DNA of 64,000 bases from Alteromonas naphthalenivorans. GTDB taxonomy: Bacteria; Pseudomonadota; Gammaproteobacteria; Enterobacterales; Alteromonadaceae. Location of the stretch: positions 2,852,001 through 2,916,000 of the forward strand of contig NC_015554.1 of assembly GCF_000213655.1 (NCBI RefSeq). Direction: 5' to 3'. Positions 22,940-63,847 of the stretch are shown one piece after another. Below the pieces are notes generated by a model, which had not been told where the DNA came from, made no database searches, and worked only from the letters and a program-made list of their open reading frames with translations. Position numbers and translations under genes: made by a program. The first letter of the stretch is position 1. Each line of letters starts with the position of its first letter.

Positions 22940-22942
22940 TTC

Positions 22943-24151
22943 TTAACCTCTCATTTCTGCTGTTTCTGCTGTAGCCTTGCTATTAACTATTTTAAACTCA
23001 CCGTTCGTATTTTCTGCTTCGAGTTCATCCTGGATGCGAATAGAGCTTTGCTTTCTTTTAAGCGCATTGTAACGGCCTTTCGGCGCATCAATATCAATAT
23101 AAGCGCCTTGCAGGTGACGTCGCCCCTCGCTCGGGTCGAACCCGGTGCGCCCATGTAATACGCGGGTGTTGTGGAACATCTGCAATTGCCCCGGCTCTAA
23201 TCTGAAGCGCCATTCGTATTCAGGCGAACATAACAACTGCCCCAAACGTTTACGGGCTCGATGAAATATAATCATGTCTTCATCTTGTAACAGCGGCAAA
23301 TAGTCCAAGCGAGGGCTGTATGCGATACCCGTAATTCTGCCACTAGGGTCAGACTCAATCATGGTACGTCTTTCTATCAAATCAACATCGTTGTCGTAAT
23401 AACGGTAACGAACAGGTACCTTGCAAAGCAGGGCGAAACCTTCCGGATCTTCCTTTTTCAGCTGTTCTAAAACTGACAAGCTATCGACCAACGTCGACAA
23501 TCCTTCGGTAGTCTGATTTTCTAAACAATGCAGAAGTTGAATACCCGGCATGGGGTTACGGTAAGGGTTGTCAGTATGCGGCCCTAACGGCACAGAGCGA
23601 TAGGCAAGATCGTTCGAATTTGGACGGGTAAATACCTCGAAGTACTTACCAAAGTTAGTTTCCCTTACATGCCCAAATAAATTTGCTACTTCTAATACCG
23701 CGTCGGATTCAGTAGGCACGTTATCAACAATTAATACGCCGTAGGTTAAAAATATTTCTATTCCTTTAATTAAACCCTCTTGTGATTTCAATGTAGCTAA
23801 ATCAATATGAAACAATGACTTGTCTACATCGCTTTTCCACGCTATATCGTTAGGCGCACCGTCCCAAACATCGAAGTCGGCAGCGAACTCATTCAAATCG
23901 TACTCACCTGAATACCCGTCACTAAACGTAAGGTTAGCTAGGGTATTGTGCTTCTTTTCTACCTTGGTCAGCGACACATTTTCATCTAGCTGATGTGGGT
24001 CAAAAAAGCGCTGTTTGGTGGTTTTATCAAGATTTTCAGAATCTTGGCAACGCTCTCGAAGCCACAATGCGGGTAAAGGATAGTGTTGTCCATTTACAAT
24101 CGCTGACACGGAAGCATTCGCTTCGTTGATAACATAGTCTATTTGCTGCAC
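22943..24151 (-). CDS. tmpA: 2OG/Fe(II) hydroxylase of gamma-butyrobetaine hydroxylase family (TmpA-like)
   Basis: 402 residues: an N-terminal DUF971-like domain (about 1-95, with LWLRERC) and a TauD/GBBH catalytic domain. Iron ligands are H192 and D194 (GPHTDNPYRNP) and a distal His in LHGRTGF; the 2OG-binding Arg is probably in GRRHLQGAY. GBBH enzymes hydroxylate trimethylammonium compounds, and TmpA does so on 2-trimethylaminoethylphosphonate at C1. Pairing with a PhnZ/TmpB-like gene three bases downstream favours the phosphonate role over carnitine synthesis. A divergent LysR gene is the likely regulator. Confidence 0.75.
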   Translation of the reverse strand: MQQIDYVINEANASVSAIVNGQHYPLPALWLRERCQDSENLDKTTKQRFFDPHQLDENVSLTKVEKKHNTLANLTFSDGYSGEYDLNEFAADFDVWDGAPNDIAWKSDVDKSLFHIDLATLKSQEGLIKGIEIFLTYGVLIVDNVPTESDAVLEVANLFGHVRETNFGKYFEVFTRPNSNDLAYRSVPLGPHTDNPYRNPMPGIQLLHCLENQTTEGLSTLVDSLSVLEQLKKEDPEGFALLCKVPVRYRYYDNDVDLIERRTMIESDPSGRITGIAYSPRLDYLPLLQDEDMIIFHRARKRLGQLLCSPEYEWRFRLEPGQLQMFHNTRVLHGRTGFDPSEGRRHLQGAYIDIDAPKGRYNALKRKQSSIRIQDELEAENTNGEFKIVNSKATAETAEMRG

Positions 24152-24247
24152 GAGAATCTCCCTTAAAAATCAATAAGATAAGTATCAAGTAATCGTGGTT
24201 TATATTACAGTAGCAAAGCCTTATAGCTAACATGCAAATTAGTAATA

Positions 24248-25156
24248 ATGAAAGAATCTGAGTTACCTACCCTTAACGGCTTATTGTGTTTTGAAGCGAC
24301 GGTAAGACATGGCTCTATGACATTAGCAGCGGAAGATCTTGGTATTACACAGCCATTGGTATCCCAAAGAATTCGCGCCCTGGAAGATGTGGTAGGTGGT
24401 ATTTTAATTGACCGTAGTAAGAAACCCGTTACCCCTACCGTTGAAGGGCTTAAGTATTACAACGAGTTAAGAGGCTCTACATCATCTATTCTGCGTGCTA
24501 CTGATAATGCTCGTAAAGATTTTCGCGATACAAAAACAAAGATATCTATTAGTGCCTATTTTGGCTTTGCGTTTCACTGGATAATGCCTAGGCTACAACG
24601 TTTACAACAAGCCTTTCCTGATTGTCTTTTTGAAATCCAACCCACTAATAGCTTAAGCGACCTAACCACTGCACATGCAGATATATTATTTCACTTCTCA
24701 TCAAAAATTGGTAAATACCAGTTTGAAAAGATGTTAATTCCCGAAGTGGTTTTCCCGGTTTGCTCACCGAATTTCGCTATTAAACATGGTTTAAAGGCCG
24801 GCCAAATGCTTAGTGACCTTAGAAATCTTCCTCTACTGCATAAAGATGTAGATGATTCTAGGTGGTTAAATTGGCAACGCTGGGCACAAGCGTTAAATGT
24901 GAAGCCTTCTTCTAGTCCAATTTTATTTCGTTACAACAATTACCCCCTTATTGTTGAAGCGGCAATTGGCGGCCATGGTCTCTGTTTAGGATGGGAAGGG
25001 TTAATAAACCCTTTTATAGAAGATGGTAAACTTGTTGAGTTAGGGCCGCGATTAAAATCTGAAACTCGGGGATATCAGATTTGTTCAGACCAATACGCTA
25101 ACTTTGCAATAGGTAATGTGATCAAGTGGTTTATTAATGAAGTAGAGCAAGACTAA
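24248..25156 (+). CDS. LysR-family transcriptional regulator (divergent to tmpA)
   Basis: 302 residues with an N-terminal winged helix (GSMTLAAEDLGITQPLVSQRIRALE) and a periplasmic-binding-like effector domain of the GcvA type. It is divergent from the tmpA-like gene across about 95 bases, the standard layout for a LysR activator and its target. The effector may be the phosphonate or betaine compound handled by the operon (inference). Confidence 0.88.
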   Translation: MKESELPTLNGLLCFEATVRHGSMTLAAEDLGITQPLVSQRIRALEDVVGGILIDRSKKPVTPTVEGLKYYNELRGSTSSILRATDNARKDFRDTKTKISISAYFGFAFHWIMPRLQRLQQAFPDCLFEIQPTNSLSDLTTAHADILFHFSSKIGKYQFEKMLIPEVVFPVCSPNFAIKHGLKAGQMLSDLRNLPLLHKDVDDSRWLNWQRWAQALNVKPSSSPILFRYNNYPLIVEAAIGGHGLCLGWEGLINPFIEDGKLVELGPRLKSETRGYQICSDQYANFAIGNVIKWFINEVEQD

Positions 25157-35545: not shown

Positions 35546-36797
35546 CAGGGTGAGATCGTGAATATTTATTGACCAGTTGGCGGAAACTAAACGATCAGTT
35601 TGACGATCCGGTTTAGTCGTGATCTTATACTCTCTTTTTGGGGAGTAAAACCATGTATATCGAAGCCTTCACCACCCACTTTGGGGAATTATCTGACACG
35701 CGTCAATCAGCAAAAGTGACCTATCCACTTGAGGATATTTTGTTTATCACCTTGTGTGGTGTCGTCGCTGGAGCCGAAGGGTGGAGCGATATCCGGGACT
35801 ATGCCGACGGTCATATTGGCTGGTTCCAACAACATGGTTACTTGCGCGATGGCGTCCCCGTTGATGACACTATTGCCCGTACCATTTCGCGTATCGACCC
35901 AGAGCAGTTTAGAGTTTGCTTTATCAACTGGATGCAGGCTGTACATGAAAGCACCGAAGGACAATTGATTGCGATTGACGGTAAAACGCTGCGAAGCTCC
36001 TACCAGCGCGGTGACCGCCAATCAACGATACACATGGTCAACGCGTTTGCCTGCACCAATAAAGTCGTTTTAGGTCAGGTTAAAACCTCAGAGAAGTCGA
36101 ACGAAATTACAGCGATCCCTGAGCTTATTCAGTTACTTGATGTTCAGGACACCTTGGTATCAATTGATGCTATGGGCTGCCAGACCAGCATCGCAGAGCA
36201 AATAGTCGAGCAAGGTGGTGATTACCTGTTCACACTCAAAAGCAATCAGGGCAAGCTCTGTAAAGCAGTCGAGGATGCGTTTACTGAGACACGGGAAGCA
36301 CCACTTGGTGGCTTAACCTTCGAGCAAAAGCGGGGTCGCATAGAAGCCCGGACATACCATGTGTTAAGTGCTGATGACGTGAGCAAAGCGTTCCCGCAAT
36401 GGCCTGAGTTAAAGACGCTTGGCATGAGCATGAGCTTCCGCCAACAACAAGGCAAAGCACCTGAACTGACATATCGCTACCATATCAGCTCCGCACCATT
36501 AAGTGAGAAGCAACTAGCCGAAGCAGTACGTTCTCACTGGGCTGTAGAGAACAGCTTGCATTGGGTACTGGATGTCAGCATGGGTGAAGACGACTGCCAG
36601 ATACACCAGAATCACGGTGCCGAAAACTGGTCGATGCTACGCCATTTAGCGCTAAACATGTTGCGGGCAGAGTCATCAAAAGGCAGCATACCCGCCAAGC
36701 AAAAACGGGCTTGGATGAAAGCCAGCTATCTGGAAGCTGTGCTAACTGCGGGTTTTAGTGGCATGATTAATTAGTGAGCACTCATGCGGTTGCCCTG
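35546..36797 (+). mobile_element. ISAs1-family insertion sequence, 1252 bp
   Basis: Ends are CAGGG at the left and CCCTG at the right, with imperfect inverted repeats (12 of the first 21 positions match). It is flanked by a perfect 10-bp duplication, typical of ISAs1 elements. It contains one intact transposase gene whose stop lies about 20 bases from the right end. The element looks complete and possibly active. Confidence 0.92.
35653..36774 (+). CDS. ISAs1-family DDE transposase
   Basis: 373 residues from ATG 35653 (preceded by GGGGAG). Typical order: N-terminal DDE_Tnp_1-associated segment (PLEDILFITLCGVVAGAEGW), catalytic Asp in AIDGKTLR, second Asp in SIDAMGCQ, and the C-terminal HWAVENSLHWVLDV segment with the Glu. 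All key motifs are intact. Confidence 0.95.
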   Translation: MYIEAFTTHFGELSDTRQSAKVTYPLEDILFITLCGVVAGAEGWSDIRDYADGHIGWFQQHGYLRDGVPVDDTIARTISRIDPEQFRVCFINWMQAVHESTEGQLIAIDGKTLRSSYQRGDRQSTIHMVNAFACTNKVVLGQVKTSEKSNEITAIPELIQLLDVQDTLVSIDAMGCQTSIAEQIVEQGGDYLFTLKSNQGKLCKAVEDAFTETREAPLGGLTFEQKRGRIEARTYHVLSADDVSKAFPQWPELKTLGMSMSFRQQQGKAPELTYRYHISSAPLSEKQLAEAVRSHWAVENSLHWVLDVSMGEDDCQIHQNHGAENWSMLRHLALNMLRAESSKGSIPAKQKRAWMKASYLEAVLTAGFSGMIN

Positions 36798-50392: not shown

Positions 50393-51664
50393 CTAAATGT
50401 TAATACCGCGGTTCTTAGCCTTCTCTTTAATGTAAGGCTCCCAAGCCGCCGCATTACGACGTAGTGAGCGATCTTTCTTCGCTTCTTGAATGTGCTTATA
50501 AGCTTCTCTGAAGTCGCCTGCGTAGAAGTTCGCTTCCATTAGGGTGAAGTGAACTTTGCCAGGATTTTCAACGCCGCGCTCTAATGCATTGTTTAATGCT
50601 TTAATCGCGCCTTTGTAATCTTCAGCAACTAACAACAAGGTACCTTGCTTTCTGTAATGCTCAGGATCTGAACTTTTCGCGGCAGCCTTAGCGTAAAGCG
50701 AAGCTGCTTTGTCATAGTTTTTCGCCTGGTGATATGCGTTAGCAATACTCGCTAGCATATCGGCATCTTCATCAAGTAAACCAGATTTAACGTGTTTTTC
50801 CAAAATTTGAGCAGCTTTAAAAGGCATGCCGTTGGTTTGGAACAACTGAGATAACGTTTTAATCTCATTTACTTTCTTAAGGTAACCTTGAATGTAAGCC
50901 ATTTCGAACGTAGACAAACCTTTCTCGAAGTCTTCTACTGAAAGATAGAAGAAACCAAGCTGAGTCCACCAACGCGGCTCCTCAGGGAAGTTGCGAACAA
51001 GTTCTTCTGCAACTGCCACTGTTTGAGGAAACATCTTACGTTCGTAATATGACGTTAGCTTTAACACATAAGGGTTTTTATTTGGCTTATCATACAAAGC
51101 AATTGCTCTGTCAGCTGGCTCAATCATCTTATCCAATTGGCCTGCTTCATAATAAGCTTGCGCTAAACGGGTATAAACGTCCGCATCTTCTTTACACGTA
51201 AAGTCCATCCACGCGTTATACCATTTAATCGCATCAGTATATTTGTTCTCTTGCATGTTCAAATCACCTAATAACTTAAGTGTTTGAGAATGCTCGAGAT
51301 CATTCAATACTTTCGGTTCTACAGACTGGTTCAAATAACCAAGTGCTTTAGAGCCTTTACCTTCTTGTGCAGCTAATAAGTTACCAATAAAGCGATTTAC
51401 ATACGCCGCATCGAAGTCTTCAGAAGGGTCAATTTCATATAGAATGTTTAACGCTTCATCAACTTGATCTTCGTTGTAAAATTCAAACGCTTTTTGAACT
51501 TTTTTACCTGTACGCTCGCCTACTAAGGTTGTTTTTGGCTTTTCGTAACCAGGACACATTACAGGTGAAGACTGTGCTAGTGCCGCTGGCGCAGTAAATA
51601 CTGCACCGGCACCAAGCACTAAAGCAAATGCAGACATTTTGAATTTATTTTTCATCATGATCAT
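50393..51664 (-). CDS. TPR protein of TonB2-type system
   Basis: 423 residues with a signal peptide (ending ALAQ, about 31) and TPR-like repeats through the rest (for example AAYVNRFIGNLLAAQEGKGSKALGYLN and DADMLASIANAYHQAKNYDKAASLYAKAA). Periplasmic. Last gene of the operon. Its start overlaps the tonB stop (ATGA), with GGAG upstream. Such TPR proteins accompany TonB2/TtpC systems; the exact role is not established. Confidence 0.85.
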   Translation of the reverse strand: MIMMKNKFKMSAFALVLGAGAVFTAPAALAQSSPVMCPGYEKPKTTLVGERTGKKVQKAFEFYNEDQVDEALNILYEIDPSEDFDAAYVNRFIGNLLAAQEGKGSKALGYLNQSVEPKVLNDLEHSQTLKLLGDLNMQENKYTDAIKWYNAWMDFTCKEDADVYTRLAQAYYEAGQLDKMIEPADRAIALYDKPNKNPYVLKLTSYYERKMFPQTVAVAEELVRNFPEEPRWWTQLGFFYLSVEDFEKGLSTFEMAYIQGYLKKVNEIKTLSQLFQTNGMPFKAAQILEKHVKSGLLDEDADMLASIANAYHQAKNYDKAASLYAKAAAKSSDPEHYRKQGTLLLVAEDYKGAIKALNNALERGVENPGKVHFTLMEANFYAGDFREAYKHIQEAKKDRSLRRNAAAWEPYIKEKAKNRGINI

Positions 51665-52272
51665 TGCTCCAGTTTAAAGTCTAGCTGTACGAACATGCCA
51701 GTTTGCTTAACAGCTTTGCCGTCAACAATCTTAGGCTTGTATTTCCACTTACGTAATGCACGTCGTGCCTCACGGTCGAATACACGCTTAGGTTCAGCTT
51801 CAATTACTTCGATGTCGTCTACACCACCAATTTCATTGATAGTGAAAGACAATCTTACCCAACCTTCACGGCCATCACGGGCTGCATCAGGCGGATATTT
51901 CGGATCGATACGAACGATTGGAGTAGCATCGCCATCACGCTGCATAGCGCCAACACCACCAATGTTTACACCAACACCACCCGTATCAATAGCTGGGATT
52001 GCTAGGCTAAAGCCATCTGCATCCGGTTCAGCTGCTTCTGGCTCAACAAGCTCCATTTTAGGAGGCTGTTGAGGCGGAGGTGGAGGTGGAGGCGGAACAC
52101 GTTGACGCGTTTGCGTCTGATCGTCTGGTTCCTGCATCACAATATCGATTACCGGTGCTTCAGGTACTTCGTCCGCAGGTCTGGCTGAGTTTTCAATCAA
52201 CTTAGCCATAAGTACGAACAGGGCAAATGCAACACCAGCACCTAAGAATATAGATACAATTATACGTAACAT
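51661..52272 (-). CDS. tonB: TonB energy transducer
   Basis: 203 residues: an N-terminal membrane anchor (about 4-24), a short proline-rich periplasmic spacer with a run of eight Pro, and a C-terminal TonB domain (about 110-203) with PKYPPDAARDGREGWVRLSFTI and ALRKWKYKP. The short spacer is typical of TonB2-type proteins. It delivers proton-motive energy to outer-membrane receptors such as the two in this window. Confidence 0.93.
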   Translation of the reverse strand: MLRIIVSIFLGAGVAFALFVLMAKLIENSARPADEVPEAPVIDIVMQEPDDQTQTRQRVPPPPPPPPQQPPKMELVEPEAAEPDADGFSLAIPAIDTGGVGVNIGGVGAMQRDGDATPIVRIDPKYPPDAARDGREGWVRLSFTINEIGGVDDIEVIEAEPKRVFDREARRALRKWKYKPKIVDGKAVKQTGMFVQLDFKLEQ

Positions 52273-52273
52273 C

Positions 52274-52672
52274 TTAACCCCTTGCCGCTACCGAAACACG
52301 ATTAACGCCTGCAGCTTTAACCTGATCCATAATTTCTACTACTAAACCATGCTTGGCTTTAACATCAGCCTGAATGATTACGTAGTCAGTTGGCTGCTCG
52401 GTAAGCAGTCGTTCAATATTCGCTCTAACGCTGTCCGGCGCTACTTCACGTTTATCTAACCAAACGCTTCCATCTTCTGTTACCGCTATGAAAATGTTTG
52501 CGTTCTTGTGAAGAACCGCCTGGCTCGCGTCGGGCTTATTAACTTCAATCCCTGCTTCTTTAACGAAAACAGTGGTAACGATAAAGAAGATCAGCATGAT
52601 AAACACGATATCCAACATGGGTGTCATGTCAATCTGTGCGTCTTCTTCCTCGATTCTGACTTTTCGAGCCAT
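52274..52672 (-). CDS. exbD: Biopolymer transport protein ExbD
   Basis: 132 residues, one N-terminal membrane helix (about 18-38) with the conserved Asp in MTPMLDIVFIMLIFFIVTT that carries protons, and a periplasmic domain. It lies between exbB and tonB with spacing of a few bases. Confidence 0.95.
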   Translation of the reverse strand: MARKVRIEEEDAQIDMTPMLDIVFIMLIFFIVTTVFVKEAGIEVNKPDASQAVLHKNANIFIAVTEDGSVWLDKREVAPDSVRANIERLLTEQPTDYVIIQADVKAKHGLVVEIMDQVKAAGVNRVSVAARG

Positions 52673-53209: not shown

Positions 53210-54574
53210 TTACGCTTTCTCCGACTCTGAATGAGCTGCTACGATACCCGCAGTTTGCTCATCAAGAATGTGGATGATTGATTTGCTACGTGAAGCTACG
53301 ATGCTGTGAGTAAGAATCAGTGGCAACGCCGCGATAATACCTTGAGCCGTAGTTACAAGCGCCATAGAGATACTGCCAGCCATCATACGAGGGTCGCCTG
53401 TACCGAACAATGTGATTGCTTGGAACGTTGCGATCATACCAAGTACCGTACCAAGTAGACCTAGTAACGGAGCGATTGCAGCAAAGATCTTGATTACGTT
53501 GATGCCGCTTTCGATACGTGGAAGTTCACGTAGGATAGCTTCATCAAGTTTAAGTTCTAAGTTTTCAGCATCAGCAGCTTTGTTCTCTTGATAAACCTTC
53601 AAGATGCGACCTAGTGGGTTGCCATCTGAAGGGTTACCTGGGTTTTTAAGCTGTGAACGCATTTTACCAGCAACTACGGTAAGCGTAATTAGCTTGTAAA
53701 GACCGATAAGTAGACCAATCGCTAGCATTACAGTGATTGTGTAACCTACTACACCACCCGCATGATAACGCTCAGACATTGTTGCTTTTTGCTTCAACAG
53801 ACCAAGGATTGCACCTTGAGAAGGGTCAGCATAAAAAGGAACCATACCTGAAGTCGCTGCGATTAAATCGTCAGCTGAACCTACAAAGCGGCTATCTGGT
53901 TGGCGACCTAGAGGCTGAACGATTTCGTTTTCAGCATCATAAGTTAGGTAGCCGTCTTCACCTACAAGGTTGAAAGTACCGATACGAACAACTTCTTGCT
54001 GTGAAGAACCGCCGTCAAGGTTTACAACTTCTGTAGTGAAACGAACTGTTTCGCCACCTTCAGTCATTTCTTTCTGAAGAGCAAACCATAGGTCTTCTAG
54101 TTCTTGAATGTTAGGAAGACCTTTAGAATCTTCTGCCATTCCAGCTAGGAACTCACCACGGCCTGGGAATTGAGCACTAACGATTGATGTAGCAACACGG
54201 CCATAAGCTTCTGAAGAAGCTTGACGAACCACACCGAACATCTCACCAAGTGTACCAGTTGCCTGGTCAAGCTCAGCGGCTTTTTCGTTAAGCGTTACTT
54301 CGTTGTCAGAGAATTGTTGTTGAAGACGGTCACCACGACCCTGTTCAGCTTTCAATTCAGATTCTGCTTTACGAAGAAGCGCTTGCTTGTCTGCACGAGC
54401 AGATTGGAACTCTGCTTCACGCTGTTTGTTGATACGTGTTTCAGAAACACGGTTATCCTGAACTTGGTCTAAAAGTTCTTTAAGGCTCTTTGCTTCCTGA
54501 GCCTGAGCTCCGGTTGCTACAACCGCAAGAGTGGCAGCGGTTAAAAGAGATTTGAATACTGGTTTCATTAACAA
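53210..54574 (-). CDS. TtpC-like MotA/TolQ/ExbB protein with long periplasmic domain
   Basis: 454 residues: a signal peptide (ending AQAQ, about 26), a coiled-coil-rich periplasmic part (about 28-110, Gln/Glu/Lys-rich), a further periplasmic domain, then a C-terminal ExbB-like membrane module with PLLGLLGTVLGMIATFQAIT and SMALVTTAQGIIAALPLIL. This is the architecture of Vibrio TtpC, which is needed for TonB2-dependent uptake. Confidence 0.88.
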   Translation of the reverse strand: MLMKPVFKSLLTAATLAVVATGAQAQEAKSLKELLDQVQDNRVSETRINKQREAEFQSARADKQALLRKAESELKAEQGRGDRLQQQFSDNEVTLNEKAAELDQATGTLGEMFGVVRQASSEAYGRVATSIVSAQFPGRGEFLAGMAEDSKGLPNIQELEDLWFALQKEMTEGGETVRFTTEVVNLDGGSSQQEVVRIGTFNLVGEDGYLTYDAENEIVQPLGRQPDSRFVGSADDLIAATSGMVPFYADPSQGAILGLLKQKATMSERYHAGGVVGYTITVMLAIGLLIGLYKLITLTVVAGKMRSQLKNPGNPSDGNPLGRILKVYQENKAADAENLELKLDEAILRELPRIESGINVIKIFAAIAPLLGLLGTVLGMIATFQAITLFGTGDPRMMAGSISMALVTTAQGIIAALPLILTHSIVASRSKSIIHILDEQTAGIVAAHSESEKA

Positions 54575-55354
54575 TTACTCCGCTGCACTAATTGGTAGTT
54601 TGATCAGATCCGCAGGAATGACGTTATTAGCCATTTTAACTGCGTCAACAACTGATGACAGATATTCGTCGCCAAGTTGTTCCCAAGCGCGGCTTTCATT
54701 GTTCCATGCCCAAGCGTTTTCTTGGTCAAGAGACAATGCTACTAGTGCAGTGCGACCTAGGTTAAAGAAGTCAACCGTCACCTCAGTGCCGTTGCTATCA
54801 ATAGTACCTTGGTAAGAGTTAATCTTAGTGCCGTACTCAACTTCAACCAAGTATGCTTCGATTACTTGGCGGAACTGTTCTGAAACAGTTACGTTAGAGT
54901 TAGACATAACATCACGTAAACGCTGAACACGCTCTAGACGCTCGTCTAAGTGAATAGGACGATCAAGTTTGATGAATTTCTCAAGACTATCGATCATGCG
55001 GAACATAAGAGGAACGATGCCCTGCTTAGTTTGTTCAATGCTGTCAATTTGACGTTGCAAAGAATCAATACCACGTTGTTGATCTGCTACAAGACTCGCA
55101 ATGTAGTCATTGTATATTTTGAGGTTTTCTGTCTCATCTACTGTTTGACGGTACTCAACCAGTAATTCTTGAGACTGTTCAAACAACGTGTTGATTTTTT
55201 CCTGAGATTTCGCTGCAGCTGCGTGGATTTTCGCTTCTTCTTTATGAAGGTCTTCAAGCGTATCTGCAGAGACTGCACTACCTGTTAGTGCGAAAGCACC
55301 GATAACAGTAGAAGCAATAAGAGTTCTCTTGCTCATTTTGGACATAGTTCCCAA
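54575..55354 (-). CDS. DUF3450 periplasmic coiled-coil protein
   Basis: 259 residues with a signal peptide (ending VSAD, about 30) and a long helical region (LHKEEAKIHAAAAKSQEKINTLFEQ and on to about 140), then a mixed domain with a conserved aromatic segment (ALSLDQENAWAWN). DUF3450 genes habitually precede ttpC-exbBD-tonB clusters in marine gammaproteobacteria. First gene of this operon and directly abuts ttpC. No clear Fur box was seen in the promoter region. Confidence 0.85.
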   Translation of the reverse strand: MGTMSKMSKRTLIASTVIGAFALTGSAVSADTLEDLHKEEAKIHAAAAKSQEKINTLFEQSQELLVEYRQTVDETENLKIYNDYIASLVADQQRGIDSLQRQIDSIEQTKQGIVPLMFRMIDSLEKFIKLDRPIHLDERLERVQRLRDVMSNSNVTVSEQFRQVIEAYLVEVEYGTKINSYQGTIDSNGTEVTVDFFNLGRTALVALSLDQENAWAWNNESRAWEQLGDEYLSSVVDAVKMANNVIPADLIKLPISAAE

Positions 55355-55652: not shown

Positions 55653-55862
55653 TTACCTTGCTTTAATCCAACCTGTCAGGGCATATCGAGGCTGTTTGGC
55701 AAATGGAGTGACATAAGTCACACTATGAATGTGTTTTACATCAAATAAGCTCAAAGTGTTAAATTCAGGTGACCAAGATTCGGTCGTTGTACCATCTGGT
55801 TCAAAGTATTGAAGCAAACCTCCCCAATCAGGGTGCCATTTTGGTGCAAGGTTTATGACATT
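55653..55862 (-). pseudogene. C-terminal remnant of a prolyl-hydroxylase-like 2OG oxygenase
   Basis: A minus-strand frame without a start encodes about 69 residues matching the C-terminal half of SM-20/P4H-type oxygenases: VINLAPKWHPDWGGLLQYFE, then PEFNTLSLFDVKHIHSVTYV and FAKQPRYALTGWIKAR. It includes the distal His and 2OG-binding Arg. An in-frame TAG directly precedes it and the N-terminal half with the HxD motif is not recognisable. It lies next to four intact oxygenase-type genes. Confidence 0.75.
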
Positions 55863-56162
55863 GTCCTATCTACGCCCATTATTGACCCTTATCATTTCAC
55901 ACCCGCTTGAAAATCAACCGACCACTGCGCTTTATATGTTCGTTATAACCCTTTAAATTCTGTCGTACTTTTAGTTATCCCATTTCTGAGAATTTTTAGT
56001 TATGTGGGAGTTTTATTTAATATCACTAAAGCATAGAAACAATCTCGCACCGAGATTCAATTTTTTATCTTTTTCATTTGCGCACGATTTATTGGCGTAC
56101 GGGTTTTGATTTGGTAATAATACGGATGCCTTAAACAATAAAACAACGAATCAAAATTATTT
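55863..56162. other. Intergenic region before plus-strand oxygenase gene
   Basis: About 300 bases. Decayed upstream sequence of the oxygenase remnant may occupy the left part; the promoter of the gene at 56163 should lie at the right end. No repeat or RNA gene seen. Confidence 0.3.
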
Positions 56163-56720
56163 ATGAATCAATCACCGAAATACAATTGTCTGATTAATGA
56201 TAAGCCAATATGGGTTTTTGATAACCTTTGCACAGTAGATGAAACAAGTACTATTTTTAAAGGGTTAGAGATAAGTGCTTTTAAACGAAATGAAGTTGCT
56301 CGCCCAGATACCGCTCAGTTCCGACATTGGGCCGTCTCTCTTTCTGAAGAACAAATTAGGGGCTTAGCCGTTTATCAACGAGCTATTCTCCAAATTAGTC
56401 ATACTACAGGAAAACAGTATCGTGCTTATCGTGGATACGTTAACTATGCATCCTATGGTGATATGCTTTTTACTCACACTGATTGTTTGCCTGAAGCGGA
56501 TGAACTCACTGTGTTGGTATTCTTGTGTCCGGAGTGGAATATCGAATGGGGTGGAGAAACTTTATTTTACAACGAAGATGATGATTGTGAATTCGCGTGT
56601 ACTCCAAAACCAGGACGTACTGTCATATTTCATGGCGCGATCAAACATGTAGGCAGACCACCAAATCGAATCTGCTATACATCTAGATACACATTGGCCT
56701 TCAAATTAGAACTAGCCTGA
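56163..56720 (+). CDS. 2OG-Fe(II) oxygenase (P4H-like fold)
   Basis: 185 residues covering one catalytic domain. The iron triad is H and D in FTHTDCLP and a distal His in IKHVGRPP, with the 2OG-binding Arg in TSRYTLAF. The segment VFLCPEWNIEWGGETLFY is typical of prolyl-4-hydroxylase-like and SM-20-like enzymes. It is the only plus-strand gene of the oxygenase cluster and is convergent with the TPR-oxygenase gene (8 bases between stops). No signal peptide. Confidence 0.85.
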   Translation: MNQSPKYNCLINDKPIWVFDNLCTVDETSTIFKGLEISAFKRNEVARPDTAQFRHWAVSLSEEQIRGLAVYQRAILQISHTTGKQYRAYRGYVNYASYGDMLFTHTDCLPEADELTVLVFLCPEWNIEWGGETLFYNEDDDCEFACTPKPGRTVIFHGAIKHVGRPPNRICYTSRYTLAFKLELA

Positions 56721-56727
56721 TCTTTGG

Positions 56728-58530
56728 TTATGACTCAGGTACTATATCAAATGCGACAGTTAATCTTTGAGTATCTGAGTAAATTGGGTTAGTTCCGTGC
56801 CACATGTAAGATGGGAAAAACACAACATTTCCGGCTAAAGGCTTAATGGCGAAATCTTCTAACATTTCGACCCCCTTAATATCTGGGCGCCCGAACACCA
56901 GCCAACCGTTGCCATTTTCCCTTACTTCATCGGGCACATCAACGTAAAGTACCCCGCTCAACCACCCTTCAGAATGATAATGCGACTTGTGAAACCCCGC
57001 CTTTCTTAATCTAACCGACCAACTTCCAATAAACTGCAAGTTAGAGTGAATACGAGAGAGAAAAGGATGTTTTTTTTGCGTTGATAGAGAGCACACAAAC
57101 GACTTTGCTCTATTTTTAAGGGCAGTCTTGAGGGTTTGAATTAAATAGTGCTCACTGTCTAGTAAGTTTTCAAATGTCTGAGTGCCATTTCTCAGCGACT
57201 GCCCTATGGGATGCTTGGTACTGCTATGCAATGAATTTAGATAACCCGCCAATTCATTAATAAAGTGCATGTTTTCTTCTGAATTTTCTAATAGCGATGT
57301 GACATTCACAAAATCCTGATACTGACATAATGTTTGATATTTTGTCTCATCACCATTTGCTTTATAAGCAGTAGATAACAGTGTCCAGTAGCCTTGATTT
57401 AAAGGAGCAATTCGACATACTAATTCGAGCACGCTGATAGCTTCTTTAGCTCGGTCGAGGCTCAACAACGAATAGCTTTTTTCAATAAGTAATGGCAGTA
57501 ACTCAGCACTTTTGGTGTTAGGAAGGCTATTTATAACATCGAGCGCTTCTTGGAATTGACCTAGCCCCCTCAAAGCATTAGATAGACTAGCTACTGCTGC
57601 AATTTGAATTGACGGGTCTTGCTTCGCCACAAGCTTTTCTAACCAAAGTTTCGCTTTTTCAAAGTCATCGATCTTGAGCATTAATTCCGTATAAGCCATT
57701 ACTAAACCGGGTTGTTCGGTAGACAATACTTTCTCTAAAAGGGCAAAAGGACTATTAGCATTTTGTATCCAAGCAAAATGTGCATACTCCTTGTGAAGCG
57801 TGACATTTAAAGGATATTTTGACAACCCTTGTTCATATACTTCAAATGATTCTTTGTGGGTGCCTTTAAGCGCTAATATGGCCGCAAGATTCTGGTATAT
57901 TTCTGCACCAGCAGCTCCAGTATCCAAGGCGCGTTTGTAAAGAATGAGCGCTTCGTCTTGTTGCCCAATACTACGTTTAATGTTACCTAAATTATTGAGC
58001 GCCTTTATGTTGGACGAGTCTATTTCTAATATTTGTAGCAAATATTTTTCTGCTTCTACGTTCTGTCCTTTCTGACTCAAAATAGACGACAGCATTAACA
58101 ACAAATCCAACTTTAACGGGTGAACCTTTATTAATTCCCGTACATTTTTTTCGGCTTCGGCATAACGTTCATCAGCAAATAACGTCCTCGCCAAATTATA
58201 TTTATAGTCATAACTCTCTGGGCTTATTTTATTGGCTTTGCTAAATAACAATAGCGCCTTTTTATTCTGACCCACTTCAAGCAAGAGATTTCCGAAACTA
58301 TTCATCAAATCACACGCACTAGGAAAGCGCTTTAGCCCTTTTTCGTAAGCTTTCGTTGCTTCATTGACGAAACCCAACTTACGCAAAGCACTTGCTTGTA
58401 ACTGAGGCACAACTGCATCTACACGAAGCAGTGTTGGATTTAATTTAATCATATCCAACACCACGTTGTATTCGCGTTTATTAAACGCCTGAATGAGTTG
58501 AGGAATAATTATAGAGGGCGAGTTTTGCAT
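56728..58530 (-). CDS. TPR protein with C-terminal 2OG-Fe(II) oxygenase domain
   Basis: 600 residues: about ten TPR units (residues 1-400; for example AEKYLLQILEIDSSNIKALNNLGNI and QDEALILYKRALDTGAAGAEIYQNLA) followed by a PF13759/TIGR02466-type oxygenase domain (about 490-600). Its motifs are SHYHSEGWLSGVLYV, FPSYMWHGTNP with the distal His, and QRLTVAFDIVP with the Arg. The TPR part probably recruits a protein substrate. Its ATG lies at the stop of the Asp/Asn hydroxylase-like gene (overlap of one base). Confidence 0.88.
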   Translation of the reverse strand: MQNSPSIIIPQLIQAFNKREYNVVLDMIKLNPTLLRVDAVVPQLQASALRKLGFVNEATKAYEKGLKRFPSACDLMNSFGNLLLEVGQNKKALLLFSKANKISPESYDYKYNLARTLFADERYAEAEKNVRELIKVHPLKLDLLLMLSSILSQKGQNVEAEKYLLQILEIDSSNIKALNNLGNIKRSIGQQDEALILYKRALDTGAAGAEIYQNLAAILALKGTHKESFEVYEQGLSKYPLNVTLHKEYAHFAWIQNANSPFALLEKVLSTEQPGLVMAYTELMLKIDDFEKAKLWLEKLVAKQDPSIQIAAVASLSNALRGLGQFQEALDVINSLPNTKSAELLPLLIEKSYSLLSLDRAKEAISVLELVCRIAPLNQGYWTLLSTAYKANGDETKYQTLCQYQDFVNVTSLLENSEENMHFINELAGYLNSLHSSTKHPIGQSLRNGTQTFENLLDSEHYLIQTLKTALKNRAKSFVCSLSTQKKHPFLSRIHSNLQFIGSWSVRLRKAGFHKSHYHSEGWLSGVLYVDVPDEVRENGNGWLVFGRPDIKGVEMLEDFAIKPLAGNVVFFPSYMWHGTNPIYSDTQRLTVAFDIVPES

Positions 58531-59531
58531 TACTTATAAAGTCTCCGATCCAGTGTCGCTAAGCTGCCATATTGGGAAGACCATTTACTATATATCTCCA
58601 TTAGGGCTTTAATGTCGCTACGTTCTTCTATAGATAGATACGGATTCCATATATCTAAAATCAATACCGCTCTTTTTTCATCCGCCCCGTTTTCTGCGCT
58701 GTGTTTGTAGCTATCATCAAATAGAAGAGCTTCTTTATCTTGTGTCCAATATTGGCGCTCACCAGCGGCTTCTATGTATGATAATTCATTGACTAACAGA
58801 GGTATGTGAAGTGTCCACTTAATATTAGATATACCAAAATGCGGTGGTATTTTGGTTTTTGCATCAAGCACTGAAATAACAATCTCGGGAGCATGTTCCG
58901 GACAATCTGCTAATAAGGGGGATCTTATTATCGTTTTAATTTCATCAGGCAACGTTTCTCCAACAGGAGTCAACTTGCCACCTTTCATTAAATGCAACGA
59001 ATTCCAGCATTTCGTTAGATTACGCCATTCTTGTGTATCCGGCACTTCATCTATATCGTGTATATACTTTTCATTTACCTTTGAAACACACGATAAAAAA
59101 TATCCCTTGTGATACGAAAGTTGCTGGATAAAGTCGCGAAGATTTTCAACGGAATCTATTGATGGAAAAGGGCTAGATGGCAGTTGGGGTACAAACAGAA
59201 AACTAGGTGACTGGTGCTGCTTGTCAAAAGCTTTTTGAGACAACCCACATAGCGCACTTACTGATTCTTCAATTCTTTTCGTCGAGCATATGGATTTTGT
59301 CTTGATGATTAGATCACGACGTGCCAAGTTTGCGGCATTATGTATATGAGTCGCTTGCGACTTCGTGATGGAAAATTCTTCAGAGGGTTCTAAAAAACTT
59401 GGTGCCTGCTGATACAGACGCCTATAATCCGCAAGAGCAGTGTCGTAAAGGCCATTTTCAATCAAATTGGCAATGTTAGCGAGTATTGAGTCTATTTTGC
59501 TTTTTTTCTGATTCATAAAAGTGGGAAGCAT
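58530..59531 (-). CDS. Aspartyl/asparaginyl beta-hydroxylase-family protein
   Basis: 333 residues from ATG 59531, preceded by GGGAGG; an ATG four codons earlier is possible. A helical N-terminal part precedes an AspH-type domain (about 200-320): PEIVISVLDAKTKIPPHFG with the first His, TLHIPLLV, then ALLFDDSYKHSAENGADEKRAVLILDIWNP with the distal His and Arg. AspH enzymes use H-x-G instead of HxD, as here. No membrane helix or signal peptide seen. Cotranscribed with the TPR-oxygenase. Confidence 0.87.
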   Translation of the reverse strand: MLPTFMNQKKSKIDSILANIANLIENGLYDTALADYRRLYQQAPSFLEPSEEFSITKSQATHIHNAANLARRDLIIKTKSICSTKRIEESVSALCGLSQKAFDKQHQSPSFLFVPQLPSSPFPSIDSVENLRDFIQQLSYHKGYFLSCVSKVNEKYIHDIDEVPDTQEWRNLTKCWNSLHLMKGGKLTPVGETLPDEIKTIIRSPLLADCPEHAPEIVISVLDAKTKIPPHFGISNIKWTLHIPLLVNELSYIEAAGERQYWTQDKEALLFDDSYKHSAENGADEKRAVLILDIWNPYLSIEERSDIKALMEIYSKWSSQYGSLATLDRRLYK

Positions 59532-59565
59532 TTTGCCTCCCATCTTAAACTAAAATGACTGTCAA

Positions 59566-59838
59566 TTACATATCACCGCCACTTGTTTCTGTGCCGCGCT
59601 GCATTCGGGTCCAACCCTCTCTACCTGCCTCACGCATTTGTTCTCTTTCTTCTGCCGAATAGCAAACACGCTGCATGCGATTGGAGCCAATCTTCTTTTC
59701 CATCTTACACTTCATACCATCATCTGTAGCATTACTATCAGACTTAGCATATTGAGAAGATTCGTTACTCCTTGAGCCACATGCTCCAAGCGTTAACGCT
59801 AGACCTACAACTAGACATACCTGATTTAGCTTTTTCAT
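59566..59838 (-). CDS. Small Cys-containing lipoprotein
   Basis: 90 residues: a signal peptide with lipobox (LTLGAC, Cys about 20), a Ser/Asn/Asp-rich linker, then a compact region with two Cys around a GSNRMQ core (MKCKMEKKIGSNRMQRVCYS) and a charged Glu/Arg helix. The Cys pair could form a disulfide or bind metal or haem. It sits between two oxygenase-type genes on the same strand. Not recognised beyond a resemblance to short lipoproteins near TonB receptors. Confidence 0.75.
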   Translation of the reverse strand: MKKLNQVCLVVGLALTLGACGSRSNESSQYAKSDSNATDDGMKCKMEKKIGSNRMQRVCYSAEEREQMREAGREGWTRMQRGTETSGGDM

Positions 59839-59853
59839 CCCTATTCCCTTTTT

Positions 59854-60975
59854 TTAGTGATTGCCATATAAGAATTTACCATAATTTGTTTTATGTTCTC
59901 TAATCCATTTTGTAACTAACCATTTATTTTCTTTTTGGGTCGATTCTCCAGCATGATAACTGTTGATCAGAACATTTCCCTTGTCATCACTGTTATTGAA
60001 AACAAGCATGTTTCCTTTATTAGGAGATACCCGCATACCTAATTTGGGGAACGTGGTATTCCCCCCTTCATTGACAGTATTTAAATAAATAATTGCAGTT
60101 TTTGTTCTTTGCCCACCATCTTCGAAAGTCTTAGCATCATGTAATCTATTCAATGCATCATAATGGGGTTTGTACTCTTGGCCTGGTACATATCTAAGTA
60201 AATTCAGAACCTCACCTTCACAACAACGTGTTTTAGTTGCTTTGGCAACAAGCTTATCAATTTTTCGCGTGAGCCAGTCACAGTGCTCTGGCGAAATAAT
60301 AGCAACGTAACTGGTCCTAACTTTGTCTATTCGGCCTTGACCCGTAATAGGGTCAACCACCATGGACGGTTGTAATAATGCACTGAACTTAGTGATAAGG
60401 TAATTACACTCAAAACCCGACAACGTACTCTCAAACAAACTTATAGGAAGCTCTTCGTTTAGTGTAATCGGTAATGGCAACGGCTCGAACAGTTTACTCT
60501 CCAACCCCTGAGCTACTTTATCGTTATTTGATTCACATACTTTGCTATTTACAAATTCATCGAGTTTCAGTTGGTTGAATATATTTGGTGCAATGTTTCT
60601 TACTTTATTCGCTATAAAAGAAAACTCACTACTGCTTTGCTCTAAATAGGACAAAATAACTAAATATGCTTCAATTACCCCTTTCTGGCCCAGAGCCACT
60701 AAGCTTTTCGCTACACCATTCGATTCTGTAATTAGATCGCAAAAATAAGCTATCAATAATTTGTGATATTGAACAATTGGATTTTCAACACATGAGAGGC
60801 TTTCTAAATATTGAACGGACTCAATAGGCTTATCGTGCGATAGATAATATGCATAATCTAAAGCGGCATTTATGTCTCCTGCTTCGCCAGCTTGCTTCAG
60901 AAAACCCATTGCCAAAGAGATATCGTTCGCAGCATGTGCTTTATTTGCTTTAGCGATCAATTGTTGAATATTCAT
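59854..60975 (-). CDS. Prolyl 4-hydroxylase-like 2OG oxygenase with Sel1/TPR-like N-terminus
   Basis: 373 residues from ATG 60975; a TTG start seven codons upstream would lie in the terminator hairpin and is less likely. The N-terminal 150 residues are helical repeats (AHAANDISLAMGFLKQAGEAGDINAALDYAYYL). The catalytic P4Hc domain (about 180-365) has HYD in YKPHYDAL, the segment TAIIYLNTVNEGGNTTFPKLG, a distal His in SYHAGES, and Lys in KWLVTKWIREH for 2OG. Complete active site. Directly downstream of the TonB receptor across a terminator. Confidence 0.9.
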   Translation of the reverse strand: MNIQQLIAKANKAHAANDISLAMGFLKQAGEAGDINAALDYAYYLSHDKPIESVQYLESLSCVENPIVQYHKLLIAYFCDLITESNGVAKSLVALGQKGVIEAYLVILSYLEQSSSEFSFIANKVRNIAPNIFNQLKLDEFVNSKVCESNNDKVAQGLESKLFEPLPLPITLNEELPISLFESTLSGFECNYLITKFSALLQPSMVVDPITGQGRIDKVRTSYVAIISPEHCDWLTRKIDKLVAKATKTRCCEGEVLNLLRYVPGQEYKPHYDALNRLHDAKTFEDGGQRTKTAIIYLNTVNEGGNTTFPKLGMRVSPNKGNMLVFNNSDDKGNVLINSYHAGESTQKENKWLVTKWIREHKTNYGKFLYGNH

Positions 60976-60995
60976 AACGTATGCACCATATAGCA

Positions 60996-61019
60996 AAAAA
61001 GCCTCCGAAGAGGCTTTTT
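60996..61019 (-). terminator. Rho-independent terminator after TonB receptor gene
   Basis: AAAAAGCCTC and GAGGCTTTTT with a CGAA loop. Read on the minus strand it ends the receptor transcript; partial read-through would join it to the oxygenase genes. Confidence 0.88.
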
Positions 61020-61042
61020 AAAGATTCAAACTACACTTTAAA

Positions 61043-63847
61043 TTAGAAGTTTACATTCAAACGTGTGTAGAAGAATTGTCCAGGAATTTCATACATAGAC
61101 GGGTCAAAGCTGTTAGCAAACGTCGAGTAAGAAACCTCAGGATCTGTATCAAATAAGTTGTTAACACCTAGCGTGATACGAAGGTTATCGTTAACCGCAT
61201 AACCTAGTGACACATCGTGGTAGGCCATGTCATCTAACTCATTGTAGCTAGTTCCGCCAACTTCTAGACTTGGGTCGCTACATAATTGTTGATCTAACAC
61301 ATCACCGTCAATTGAACAAAGTTCAGTAGTATGACCGATGAAGCGAACCAACCAGTTAGCTGTAAAGTCTTCATAGCTCCACGTTACTGCTAAGTTAGTA
61401 CGAATACGTGGAACAACATCACGGTCGCCCGCTAAACCAGCATCGTTAAATTCAGCGGTTGTGTTGGTAACTGGATCGATAACGATAGTTGTACGTTCGT
61501 CAACATACGTACCATCCCAGTTTACTCGGAAATCACCGTAGTCAGTTTCGAAGTTATAAGCAACGTTATAATCGAAGCCTGAAGTAGTTTGTCCACCTAG
61601 GTTTACCGCACCGTTGAACAAGTCAACAACGTTACCGCCTGCACCACGAGTGATTAGTGAACATAAGTTCACGCCCGTTTCCGCACATGCGTTAAGAATA
61701 GTTTGCGCACCTACTGTTGAAACCGCGTTGTCTACTTCAATATCAAATACGTCAAACGTGATTGATAGGCCATCAACTTGCTCTGGAGAGTATACAAATC
61801 CGTAAGTAAAGCTTTCAGCTTCTTCCGCTTGAAGGTTAGCGTTACCACCAACAGTCGTGCGAATTTGTGAGTTCGGCTGCTCATACGTTGCTGGTATACC
61901 AGCACATCCAGGTAAGTCTGGGTTTGCTGCTGCACCGCCGTTACATGGATCGGTAAGCGGAGCAAAGCTATCACTGTTACCAGAGAACAATTCATCTAGA
62001 GATGGTGCACGGAATGCTTCAGACCACGTACCACGAATGATTAAGTCGTCGTTAACACGCCACTTCAAGCCAACTTTAGAGTTTGTAGTGTCACCGAAGT
62101 TGCTGTAGTCCGAGTAACGTGTAGCAAGTTCAAGGTCTAACTGTTCAACAAACTCAAGGTCTGAAAGAAGTGGAATAGCTAGCTCTAGATATGCTTCTTC
62201 AACGCTGAACGAACCTTCAGTTGGTTGACGTGCATTACCCGACGTTATACCTGCTGCAATAATTGCATCTGGTTGGTCGTAACCTTCTTGCCAGCGCTTT
62301 TCGTATCCAGCAGCAAATGCTAAATAACCTGCTGGTAATTCAAGTACTTCACCCGAGATGTTTGCAGAGTAACTTTCTAGCGATGTGCTCTGCTCATCTT
62401 GTGCAGTGAAAGTAATGTAATCAAGCATTTCTTGCGTGATTGTACCTTCACCAAGAGCAGTAGAACCACCAAATAGGTTTAGCGGAGTACAATCGCCAGT
62501 ACAGTTAGCTGGGTCACCGATTGCAAGCGCAACGCGGTTCATATTAAGAAGACCATCTGTTAACTGGTTTTGAGTGATATCAGCATAAGTGTAGTTTGCA
62601 TCCCAGTAGAATTCTCTGTCTGCAAATTCAAGAACACCATCAAATCCACCATTAAACTGGAATTGGTCAACGTTCTGTTTGAAGCTACGGAAGCCTGCTT
62701 CCATCATACGACGACCAAACAAGAACAATTCACGTGCATTTGGATCTGCATCTAGAACTGATTGGTCTGTAGAAATATCAACACCGTATGGGTTGTATTG
62801 GTTGTCAGCAGAAAGAGTAAAGCCTGAATCACCAAATGCCGTACCGATAAACAAAGGTGTAGGTGCTAAAGCCTGTTCTGATTTACGGTTACCGTAGAAA
62901 CCAGTTACGTTTACACTTAGGTTATCTGTTAACTCGTAACGCGCCTGAGAGTAAATATTTGTTCTTTCTTGTGGCGTAGATAGGTAGTTGAAAGGAGCAA
63001 AGTTGAATCGGCTATCTGGCTCAACCCATGGCTCTAAACCACCGGCACTATCACCTTGCTCACTAAAAGACGTTCCAGCTTGATCAAAAGTCCAAAAACG
63101 ACCTTGAGGCGGCGCAGATGAACCACCGAAACCTTCAGGCGTACCGAAAACTGGAACTGCAGAGATAGCTCGGTCACCAGCAAGTGTCGCTTCTTCTTCT
63201 ACATAACTAACGTTGAAATAAACGTTACCTTTGTCGTTCGCAGCACCAAAGCCAACATCCCACTGTTCTTTGTTACCGTCGCCTTCGTCATATTGACCGA
63301 TATAGCCAGAAGCGTGAACGCCTTCGAAATCTTGACGAGTGATGATGTTTACAACACCGGCTACTGCGTCAGAACCATAAACCGCTGAAGCACCATCTTT
63401 AAGTACTTCGATACGCTCAATGATTGATGCTGGGATGTTATTTAAATCAACTGAACCTGTTAGACCTGGAGCCCAACGCTTACCGTTTACAAGAACAAGA
63501 GTACGGTTTGAGCCGATACCACGAATGTTAATAGTAGTTGTACCATTACCACCGTTGTTGTTGTTTGTGTTGATTGCTGAACCAGCAGATGGGATAGCTT
63601 GAAGAACATCACCGATTGAAGTAATACCGAATTTTTCGATATCTACACGTGACATAACCGTTACTGGGTTAGCGCCTTCAATGTCTGTGCGACGGATACG
63701 TGAACCGGTTACTTCGATTTTTTCAACAGTATCGGCTGCTTCTTCGGCTTCTTGTGCAGCAACTGCACCAGAAAAACTTATTGTTGAAACCGCGCCGAAC
63801 GCGCAGGCCAACCTAACTGACTTAGCCAGCTTAGAATTTGTAAACAT
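61043..63847 (-). CDS. TonB-dependent receptor linked to oxygenase cluster
   Basis: 934-residue outer-membrane receptor. Signal peptide (about 1-31, ending VAAQ), TonB-box-like VEKIEVTGSRIRRTDIEG, plug domain with INIRGIGSNRTLVLVNGKRW and VLKDGASAVYGSDAVAGVVNIITR, and a large barrel ending FFYTRLNVNF. The plug is of the Asn-rich class common in Alteromonas and Caulobacter receptors for peptides or complex carbohydrates. The ligand is unknown. The downstream genes are 2OG oxygenase-like proteins instead of the usual polysaccharide enzymes. Confidence 0.93.
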   Translation of the reverse strand: MFTNSKLAKSVRLACAFGAVSTISFSGAVAAQEAEEAADTVEKIEVTGSRIRRTDIEGANPVTVMSRVDIEKFGITSIGDVLQAIPSAGSAINTNNNNGGNGTTTINIRGIGSNRTLVLVNGKRWAPGLTGSVDLNNIPASIIERIEVLKDGASAVYGSDAVAGVVNIITRQDFEGVHASGYIGQYDEGDGNKEQWDVGFGAANDKGNVYFNVSYVEEEATLAGDRAISAVPVFGTPEGFGGSSAPPQGRFWTFDQAGTSFSEQGDSAGGLEPWVEPDSRFNFAPFNYLSTPQERTNIYSQARYELTDNLSVNVTGFYGNRKSEQALAPTPLFIGTAFGDSGFTLSADNQYNPYGVDISTDQSVLDADPNARELFLFGRRMMEAGFRSFKQNVDQFQFNGGFDGVLEFADREFYWDANYTYADITQNQLTDGLLNMNRVALAIGDPANCTGDCTPLNLFGGSTALGEGTITQEMLDYITFTAQDEQSTSLESYSANISGEVLELPAGYLAFAAGYEKRWQEGYDQPDAIIAAGITSGNARQPTEGSFSVEEAYLELAIPLLSDLEFVEQLDLELATRYSDYSNFGDTTNSKVGLKWRVNDDLIIRGTWSEAFRAPSLDELFSGNSDSFAPLTDPCNGGAAANPDLPGCAGIPATYEQPNSQIRTTVGGNANLQAEEAESFTYGFVYSPEQVDGLSITFDVFDIEVDNAVSTVGAQTILNACAETGVNLCSLITRGAGGNVVDLFNGAVNLGGQTTSGFDYNVAYNFETDYGDFRVNWDGTYVDERTTIVIDPVTNTTAEFNDAGLAGDRDVVPRIRTNLAVTWSYEDFTANWLVRFIGHTTELCSIDGDVLDQQLCSDPSLEVGGTSYNELDDMAYHDVSLGYAVNDNLRITLGVNNLFDTDPEVSYSTFANSFDPSMYEIPGQFFYTRLNVNF

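Follow-up and report, generated by a model that had tools for sequence, protein, structure and literature searches.

Why should the gene for a TonB-dependent receptor (TBDR) stand in a row with genes for several 2-oxoglutarate (2OG) oxygenases of different families? The question is raised by positions 55653 to 63847 of a 64,000-nucleotide stretch of Alteromonas naphthalenivorans DNA (the window; contig NC_015554.1 of a complete 4.97 Mb genome, G000). Across Alteromonas, receptor type and enzyme set go together, and they have been exchanged repeatedly at one slot beside a conserved gene, ttpB. An earlier note on this DNA had pointed to a TBDR clustered with oxygenases; open reading frame positions and Pfam matches place every gene that it named, and the clustering was, if anything, understated there. 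The cassette genes and the anchor of the slot are listed below, with family assignments from Pfam and NCBIfam scans of ten window proteins.

61043..63847, minus strand: TBDR of type T0, 934 aa, plug and barrel (PF07715 E 9.6e-27, PF00593 E 5.8e-39)
59854..60996, minus strand: helical-repeat (Sel1-like) domain with prolyl 4-hydroxylase (P4H)-type 2OG oxygenase (PF13640 E 1.8e-13)
59566..59838, minus strand: small two-Cys lipoprotein, 90 aa (lipobox by inspection)
58530..59543, minus strand: AspH-type protein, helical N-terminus with Asp/Asn beta-hydroxylase domain, H-x-G variant (PF05118 E 1.9e-23)
56728..58530, minus strand: tetratricopeptide repeat (TPR) with PF13759 2OG oxygenase, 600 aa (PF13759 E 5.1e-21)
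56163..56720, plus strand: FlmC-like compact 2OG oxygenase (PF13640 E 1e-9)
55659..55874, minus strand: pseudogene 3' end of a P232-type 2OG oxygenase (comparison with relatives)
54575..55354, minus strand: ttpB (DUF3450), slot anchor (PF11932 E 1.6e-86)

The five genes from the TBDR to the TPR-PF13759 gene follow one another on the minus strand with gaps of 46, 15, 22 and -1 bases, the AspH and TPR-PF13759 genes sharing one base; judged from relatives, the P4H-like protein probably starts at the ATG at 60975. The FlmC-like gene runs toward the TPR-oxygenase gene from the opposite strand and ends 7 bases from it, and about 800 bases, including the pseudogene end, separate it from the ttpB operon. 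Because the only PF13759 match of the genome, its only PF05118 match and three of its seven PF13640 matches (remnant counted) concentrate within about 5 kb of 4.97 Mb, the clustering is not a matter of chance, as the earlier note had judged. Its statement that no polysaccharide enzyme or peptidase accompanies the cassette also stands: no carbohydrate-active enzyme was found among the ten proteins scanned, as a polysaccharide utilization or CUT locus would require, and the run contains neither the protease nor the exporter of a cluster for ribosomally synthesized and modified peptides, its sole small gene being the lipoprotein.

Receptor and enzymes at one slot in Alteromonas

A close homologue of ttpB anchors the slot in 57 of 59 Alteromonas genomes, the other two having only a paralogue. 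The stretch upstream of all 57 genes was classed by BLAST (E 1e-3) against our own reference proteins, with a Pfam check of representative, not all, methyltransferase, sulfotransferase, AspH, P232 and DUF6445 proteins; receptor types were defined at 60% identity. A TBDR occupies 54 of the 57 slots, in 15 sequence types; the remaining three hold other genes (G069), reach a contig end (G071) or are empty (G079). At least one recognized modifying enzyme is present in 47 of the 54 receptor-bearing slots: PF13759 in 38, methyltransferase in 20, AspH in 16, P232 in 14, P4H in 13, sulfotransferase in 12, FlmC in 11 and DUF6445 in 2. Conversely, 38 of the 43 PF13759 genes scoring over cut-off in the 59 genomes, and 16 of the 21 PF05118 genes, lie no more than about 6.3 kb upstream of ttpB, and of the five PF13759 genes outside the slot, the two inspected (L128, L129) adjoin a TBDR-like gene.

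The association is sharpest for the type found in the window. All 13 T0 members share the core order TBDR-P4H-lipoprotein-AspH-PF13759, the window receptor being 73-97% identical to the 12 others; FlmC comes next in 11, P232 instead in G029 and G027, and five also carry a sulfotransferase gene. The P4H gene is a fragment in G011 and the AspH gene is split in G066. P4H occurs in 13/13 T0 slots against 0/41 of the others, FlmC in 11/13 against 0/41, AspH in 13/13 against 3/41 and methyltransferase in 0/13 against 20/41; the lipoprotein is in 13/13 T0 slots. Conserved co-occurrence in related genomes, on which the earlier note had staked its proposal, is thus borne out, in 13 of the 57 anchored Alteromonas genomes and in Rheinheimera baltica. 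The 2OG-oxygenase theme that it described holds in the window and proves too narrow elsewhere: since other cassettes carry methyltransferases or sulfotransferases, the common theme is a receptor with tailoring enzymes, not 2OG chemistry alone.

Exchange is evident from a tree of ttpB sequences taken from 53 genomes, without G012, whose ttpB is in two frames. Receptor types require 30 changes on this tree, against a minimum of 14 and an average of 35.2 with shuffled labels (30 or fewer in 2/200); they are somewhat clustered yet far from tracking the tree. T0 alone takes 9 changes (shuffled 11.0, as low in 32/500), at least 8 of them forced by well-supported branches. The close pair G029 (T0) and G008 (T1) differ in receptor type and share a P232 gene beside ttpB. 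The window and G080 (T2) DNA are 93% similar from ttpB up to 55597, and similarity returns only at 63695, at the receptor start; ttpB itself, the one operon gene compared across cassettes, is 97% identical in G080 despite the other cassette there.

Near this breakpoint sits the remnant, whose 72 codons, with an in-frame TAG, align at 85% identity with positions 160-231 of a 2OG oxygenase that is intact in G029 and 232 aa long. An intact P232 gene occupies its place in G029, G027 and L029, and more decayed traces are seen in G077 and G032. Given its position and these intact counterparts, the remnant is probably a scar of replacement, left over from what the slot held before. The contigs L028 and L029 are filed under a Thalassotalea metagenome-assembled genome, where they are probably mis-binned, because their flanking genes are 92-97% identical to those of Alteromonas G029. 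The six intact cassette genes are under purifying selection, with a ratio of nonsynonymous to synonymous divergence (dN/dS) of 0.05-0.16 between the window and G077; beyond G077, synonymous sites are mostly saturated.

The left border of the slot is a tryptophan-2,3-dioxygenase-like gene or its small neighbor in 52 of the 57 cases, and leucine dehydrogenase-, Lrp regulator- and maleylacetoacetate isomerase-like genes are seen in the left flank too (e.g., L050, L063), so labeled by inspection. An amino-acid catabolism cluster, by the same labels, abuts the receptor slot.

Enzymes, lipoprotein and the neighboring TonB operon

The likely catalytic residues of the enzymes are invariant across the 6-8 sequences aligned for each. 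In the P4H-like protein these are H278, D280, H348 and K358 (7 sequences), the HxD...H...K set of a double-stranded beta-helix core, and its activity on peptidyl-proline is predicted from relatives: the domain profile matches the protein prolyl 4-hydroxylases 5hv0 (E 1.4e-36) and 2jig, and Foldseek pairs the AlphaFold2 model, with helices at 10-142 and then a beta core, with 2jig and with 3gze, an algal P4H holding a (Ser-Pro)5 peptide. The model is the best of five (mean pLDDT 81.7; 64.6-72.0 for the other four). The P4H protein of L192 gives a weak Sel1 match (E 0.0045), below the cut-off. The AspH-type protein matches human AspH (5apa, E 5.4e-20) by profile and 6yyy by Foldseek over 349 columns (TMq 0.55), an alignment that covers both repeat and oxygenase domains; H235, G237, H281 and R291 are invariant in 8 sequences, and its PF05118 domain has the two-His iron site in which H-x-G replaces H-x-D, as in human AspH. 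For the TPR region of the PF13759 protein the matches are TPR superhelices, O-GlcNAc transferase included. The FlmC-like oxygenase keeps H105, D107 and H162 in 6 sequences and scores 134 bits with NF052475, under the curated cut-off of 240, which leaves it outside the FlmC family proper. Three cassette enzymes thus bear helical or TPR domains, and none has a signal peptide by inspection; the receptor and the lipoprotein do. In line with the earlier suggestion of protein or peptide substrates, two enzymes, P4H and AspH, resemble protein hydroxylases by profile and fold.

The lipoprotein is conserved in its C-terminal half, with C20, C44 and C59 invariant in 8 sequences. A widespread family of such small lipoproteins (L161-L189) has the core C-x(5-8)-G[ST]-x(5-7)-C, and two members scanned gave no Pfam match. 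The idea that the lipoprotein mimics an N-terminal box of the receptor (EKIEVTGSRIRR, against the lipoprotein C-x-GS-x-C core) was not supported: by position-specific score, only 3 of 20 sequences were equalled by no more than 25 of their 500 shuffles (best 9/500), and the window's own lipoprotein was equalled by 349/500.

Beside the cassette lies an operon, ttpB-ttpC-exbB-exbD-tonB-ttpD, that resembles those of Vibrio TonB2 and TonB3. The earlier note mentions neither this operon nor the swapping of entire cassettes. After ttpB the operon continues as follows.

53210..54574, minus strand: ttpC, large ExbB-like (PF01618), named from gene order after PMC6957404
52684..53208, minus strand: exbB, labeled from gene order (position and conservation beside ttpC)
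52274..52672, minus strand: exbD, labeled from gene order (position and conservation)
51661..52272, minus strand: tonB (PF03544 E 3.8e-19)
50393..51664, minus strand: TPR protein at the ttpD position, last gene of the operon (TPR families; label by position)

The six-gene order is that of a TtpC-type TonB system, with exbB, exbD and ttpD named by position. TonB contains a proline run in the window and is 79-100% identical among the T0 genomes, to which its comparison was limited.

Three other places in the window may be recorded here. Positions 22319-25156 encode a 402-aa gamma-butyrobetaine-dioxygenase-like protein, a 206-aa HD-domain-like protein and a LysR-type regulator, a set that we take to resemble the TmpA-TmpB pathway for trimethylaminoethylphosphonate. 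By inspection, 7609-8556 holds a REP-associated (Y1) transposase-like gene and 35638-36774 an ISAs1-like transposase gene.

Relatives beyond the Alteromonas slot

Rheinheimera baltica (L033) has the whole set together with a TPR-sulfotransferase-like gene, and no ttpB within the 20.9 kb examined. In other genera of the family, L114, L115 and L117 have before ttpB a TBDR, TPR-PF13759, a methyltransferase, AspH, a TPR-sulfotransferase-like gene and two P232-like genes, and L121 has a TBDR with an enzyme set there; in another family, L111 has a TBDR, methyltransferase and AspH before ttpB. An order-wide search with the receptor reached 30 of 394 genomes at E 1e-150, and 20 places were viewed more widely. 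In L190-L195 and L207, related TBDRs have short PF13759-like genes beside them or close by (by BLAST, Pfam-checked in L190 and L193); G335 (L116, L192) has P4H-, sulfotransferase-, AspH- and P232-like genes as well near the receptor; L199 has sulfotransferase-like and PF13759-like genes past a second TBDR; and L198 has ttpB alone near the receptor. Apart from two loci taken up below, neither ttpB nor a recognized oxygenase was seen at the remaining places among the 20. DUF692/bufferin-type operon-like genes, by inspection, lie near the receptor locus in L033 (16183-18279) and also in L195 and L199, possibly through simple synteny.

AspH relatives were searched for order-wide (E 1e-25), and of the 16 non-window places 8 show a TBDR at a distance of up to about 8 kb, one of them Oar-type. 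PF13759 as a universal receptor partner was rejected, with a recognized TBDR within 1.5 kb at 0 of the 30 best loci of the phylum search, which are mostly stand-alone forms of about 210 aa. Among 20 hand-picked loci with long PF13759 proteins (frames of at least 400 aa, outside the family; 19 from other classes; not including G609, G669 and loci with lower scores), 8 have a TBDR in the surrounding stretch of up to 15 kb that was viewed; L240 has AspH and sulfotransferase genes with the TBDR, and L256 a sulfotransferase. A second combination of receptor and tailoring enzymes is seen in L128 and L129, where TBDR-like and TPR-PF13759 genes occur with a tryptophan-halogenase-like gene.

What the enzymes may act on

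Because the enzyme set tracks receptor type, because relatives of two enzyme families act on proteins, and because no peptidase or transporter is labeled in the slots, we tentatively favor, at somewhat short of an even chance, that the enzymes modify their cognate receptor, or its partner, before export. The cassette would then unite a receptor with dedicated maturation enzymes, ahead of a TtpC-type TonB operon that would energize it. Cytoplasmic enzymes would act on the unfolded receptor precursor or on a lipoprotein partner, the helical and TPR domains of three of them being fit to hold a polypeptide; Pro and Asn/Asp hydroxylation would fall on residues that end in binding or surface regions, where it would fix the choice of ligand or recognition by phages and toxins, and in other cassettes methylation and sulfation may fill the same role. 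The fuller claim is that TBDRs are enzymatically modified in these ways and exchanged with their modifiers as one cassette before the TtpC-type operon, as a general and previously undescribed way of diversifying receptors; this we hold more loosely still.

Several observations weigh against modification of the receptor. No modified residue has been observed so far. The partial clustering of receptor types on the ttpB tree means that part of the association between type and enzymes is shared descent, and modification is not obligatory, given that 7 of the 54 slot receptors lack a recognized enzyme and that the set varies within type T3, G019 and G035 having only a methyltransferase. The best receptor column distinguishing groups with PF13759 from those without shows a difference of 0.641, equalled by 2/300 label shuffles with relatedness uncontrolled. 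Plug residue 136 is Asn in 18/18 groups with PF13759 and in 12/22 without, and G019 and G035 keep Asn136 despite having no PF13759 enzyme. Between the window and G016 the receptor is 91% identical, the lipoprotein and FlmC 78%, and P4H, AspH and TPR-PF13759 58-63%, so that the receptor evolves more slowly than three of its enzymes, a disparity that a tightly matched pair need not show. Elsewhere, L203 and L204 combine a TBDR, an LP90-like lipoprotein and ttpB with no recognized oxygenase, AspH-like genes occur away from any recognized TBDR in L118, L120, L122-L124 and L025, and the FlmC-AspH pair of L110 and L113 has no recognized TBDR nearby and may act without a neighboring receptor. In these two small genomes the pair adjoins a ferredoxin-like gene.

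The same enzymes could instead serve import. The receptor would take up a ligand derived from peptide or protein, and the cytoplasmic enzymes would begin its breakdown or detoxification by hydroxylating it, in other cassettes by methylating or sulfating it. The TPR or helical domains of the protein-hydroxylase-like enzymes suit this as well, as do the tryptophan-2,3-dioxygenase-like border of the slots and the nearby leucine dehydrogenase- and Lrp-like genes, and a title among the references of PMC6957404 places V. vulnificus TonB3 under Lrp. We nevertheless regard import as rather unlikely: among labeled slot genes we found no peptidase or inner-membrane transporter (the unlabeled genes of G018, G025, G026, G078 and G069 were not scanned), and sulfation and methylation are odd catabolic steps. 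A reading in which the enzymes make or modify a small molecule, for instance a siderophore derived from amino acids, which is exported and retaken by the receptor, seems improbable. Oxygenases, methyltransferases and sulfotransferases do belong to the natural-product toolkit too, beta-hydroxy-Asp and other hydroxy-amino acids are found in siderophores, and receptor genes often stand beside siderophore pathways; yet neither the window cassette nor the labeled slot genes include a nonribosomal peptide synthetase, ligase or exporter, three enzymes bear helical or TPR domains, and the nearest solved relatives of two act on proteins.

Two further candidates lie closer to the receptor. The two-Cys lipoprotein might itself be what the enzymes modify, and serve alongside the receptor as a modified peptide exposed at the surface, as its place inside the run, its conserved C-terminal half and its presence throughout T0 would allow; its relatives, though, give profile matches in 38 of the 394 genomes of the order, also with no oxygenases nearby, and in L203 and L204 such a relative adjoins a TBDR with no recognized oxygenase, which leaves this decidedly doubtful. 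Least credible, and very improbable, is a reading in which TonB or some other shared protein of the envelope is the target and the linkage to the receptor is incidental. The proline run of TonB and the adjoining operon speak for it, but enzyme sets follow receptor type while ttpB hardly differs in G080; as TonB was compared among T0 genomes only, this case is indirect.

Receptor modification, the reading we prefer, would draw on known parts, the TtpC system and the families of the enzymes. The accessible part of PMC6957404 gives Vibrio TonB2 and TonB3 the same six-gene order with DUF3450 first, and the V. vulnificus TonB3 operon starts with an outer-membrane receptor gene and ends with ttpD; that part mentions no oxygenase, methyltransferase or sulfotransferase genes, unlike the window cassette. 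The window P4H shares the catalytic domain and HxD...H...K residues of protein P4Hs (5hv0, 2jig, 3gze) and adds an N-terminal helical domain and a neighboring TBDR gene. The AspH-type protein has the layout and the H-x-G of AspH, with a short helical domain and, by inspection, neither signal peptide nor membrane anchor, and no EGF-like domain was matched in the ten proteins scanned. In PiuA/PiuC-type pairs a 2OG oxygenase (PKHD hydroxylase) stands beside a TBDR as in the window, there as a single enzyme in a siderophore context; no PKHD model was among the matches listed for the ten proteins, its presence in the library being unconfirmed. L128 and L129 likewise have TPR-PF13759 beside a TBDR-like gene, and differ in the halogenase-like gene (both labels by inspection) and in that ttpB and ttpC were unrecognized in the 17 kb examined.

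We found no description of receptor-plus-modifier cassettes as exchangeable units in the literature searched, whose scope excluded preprints and most subscription papers, and the function given to them here is a proposal. Even apart from mechanism, that a single address holds 15 types of receptor across 54 genomes is a notable population-genetic fact. If receptors are indeed modified, ligand choice and recognition by phages or toxins would hinge on a residue modification invisible in the gene sequence, bacterial AspH-, P4H- and PF13759-type enzymes would gain substrates, and marine bacteria would offer a genetic system in which the cassette swaps found in nature allow a direct test of the idea.

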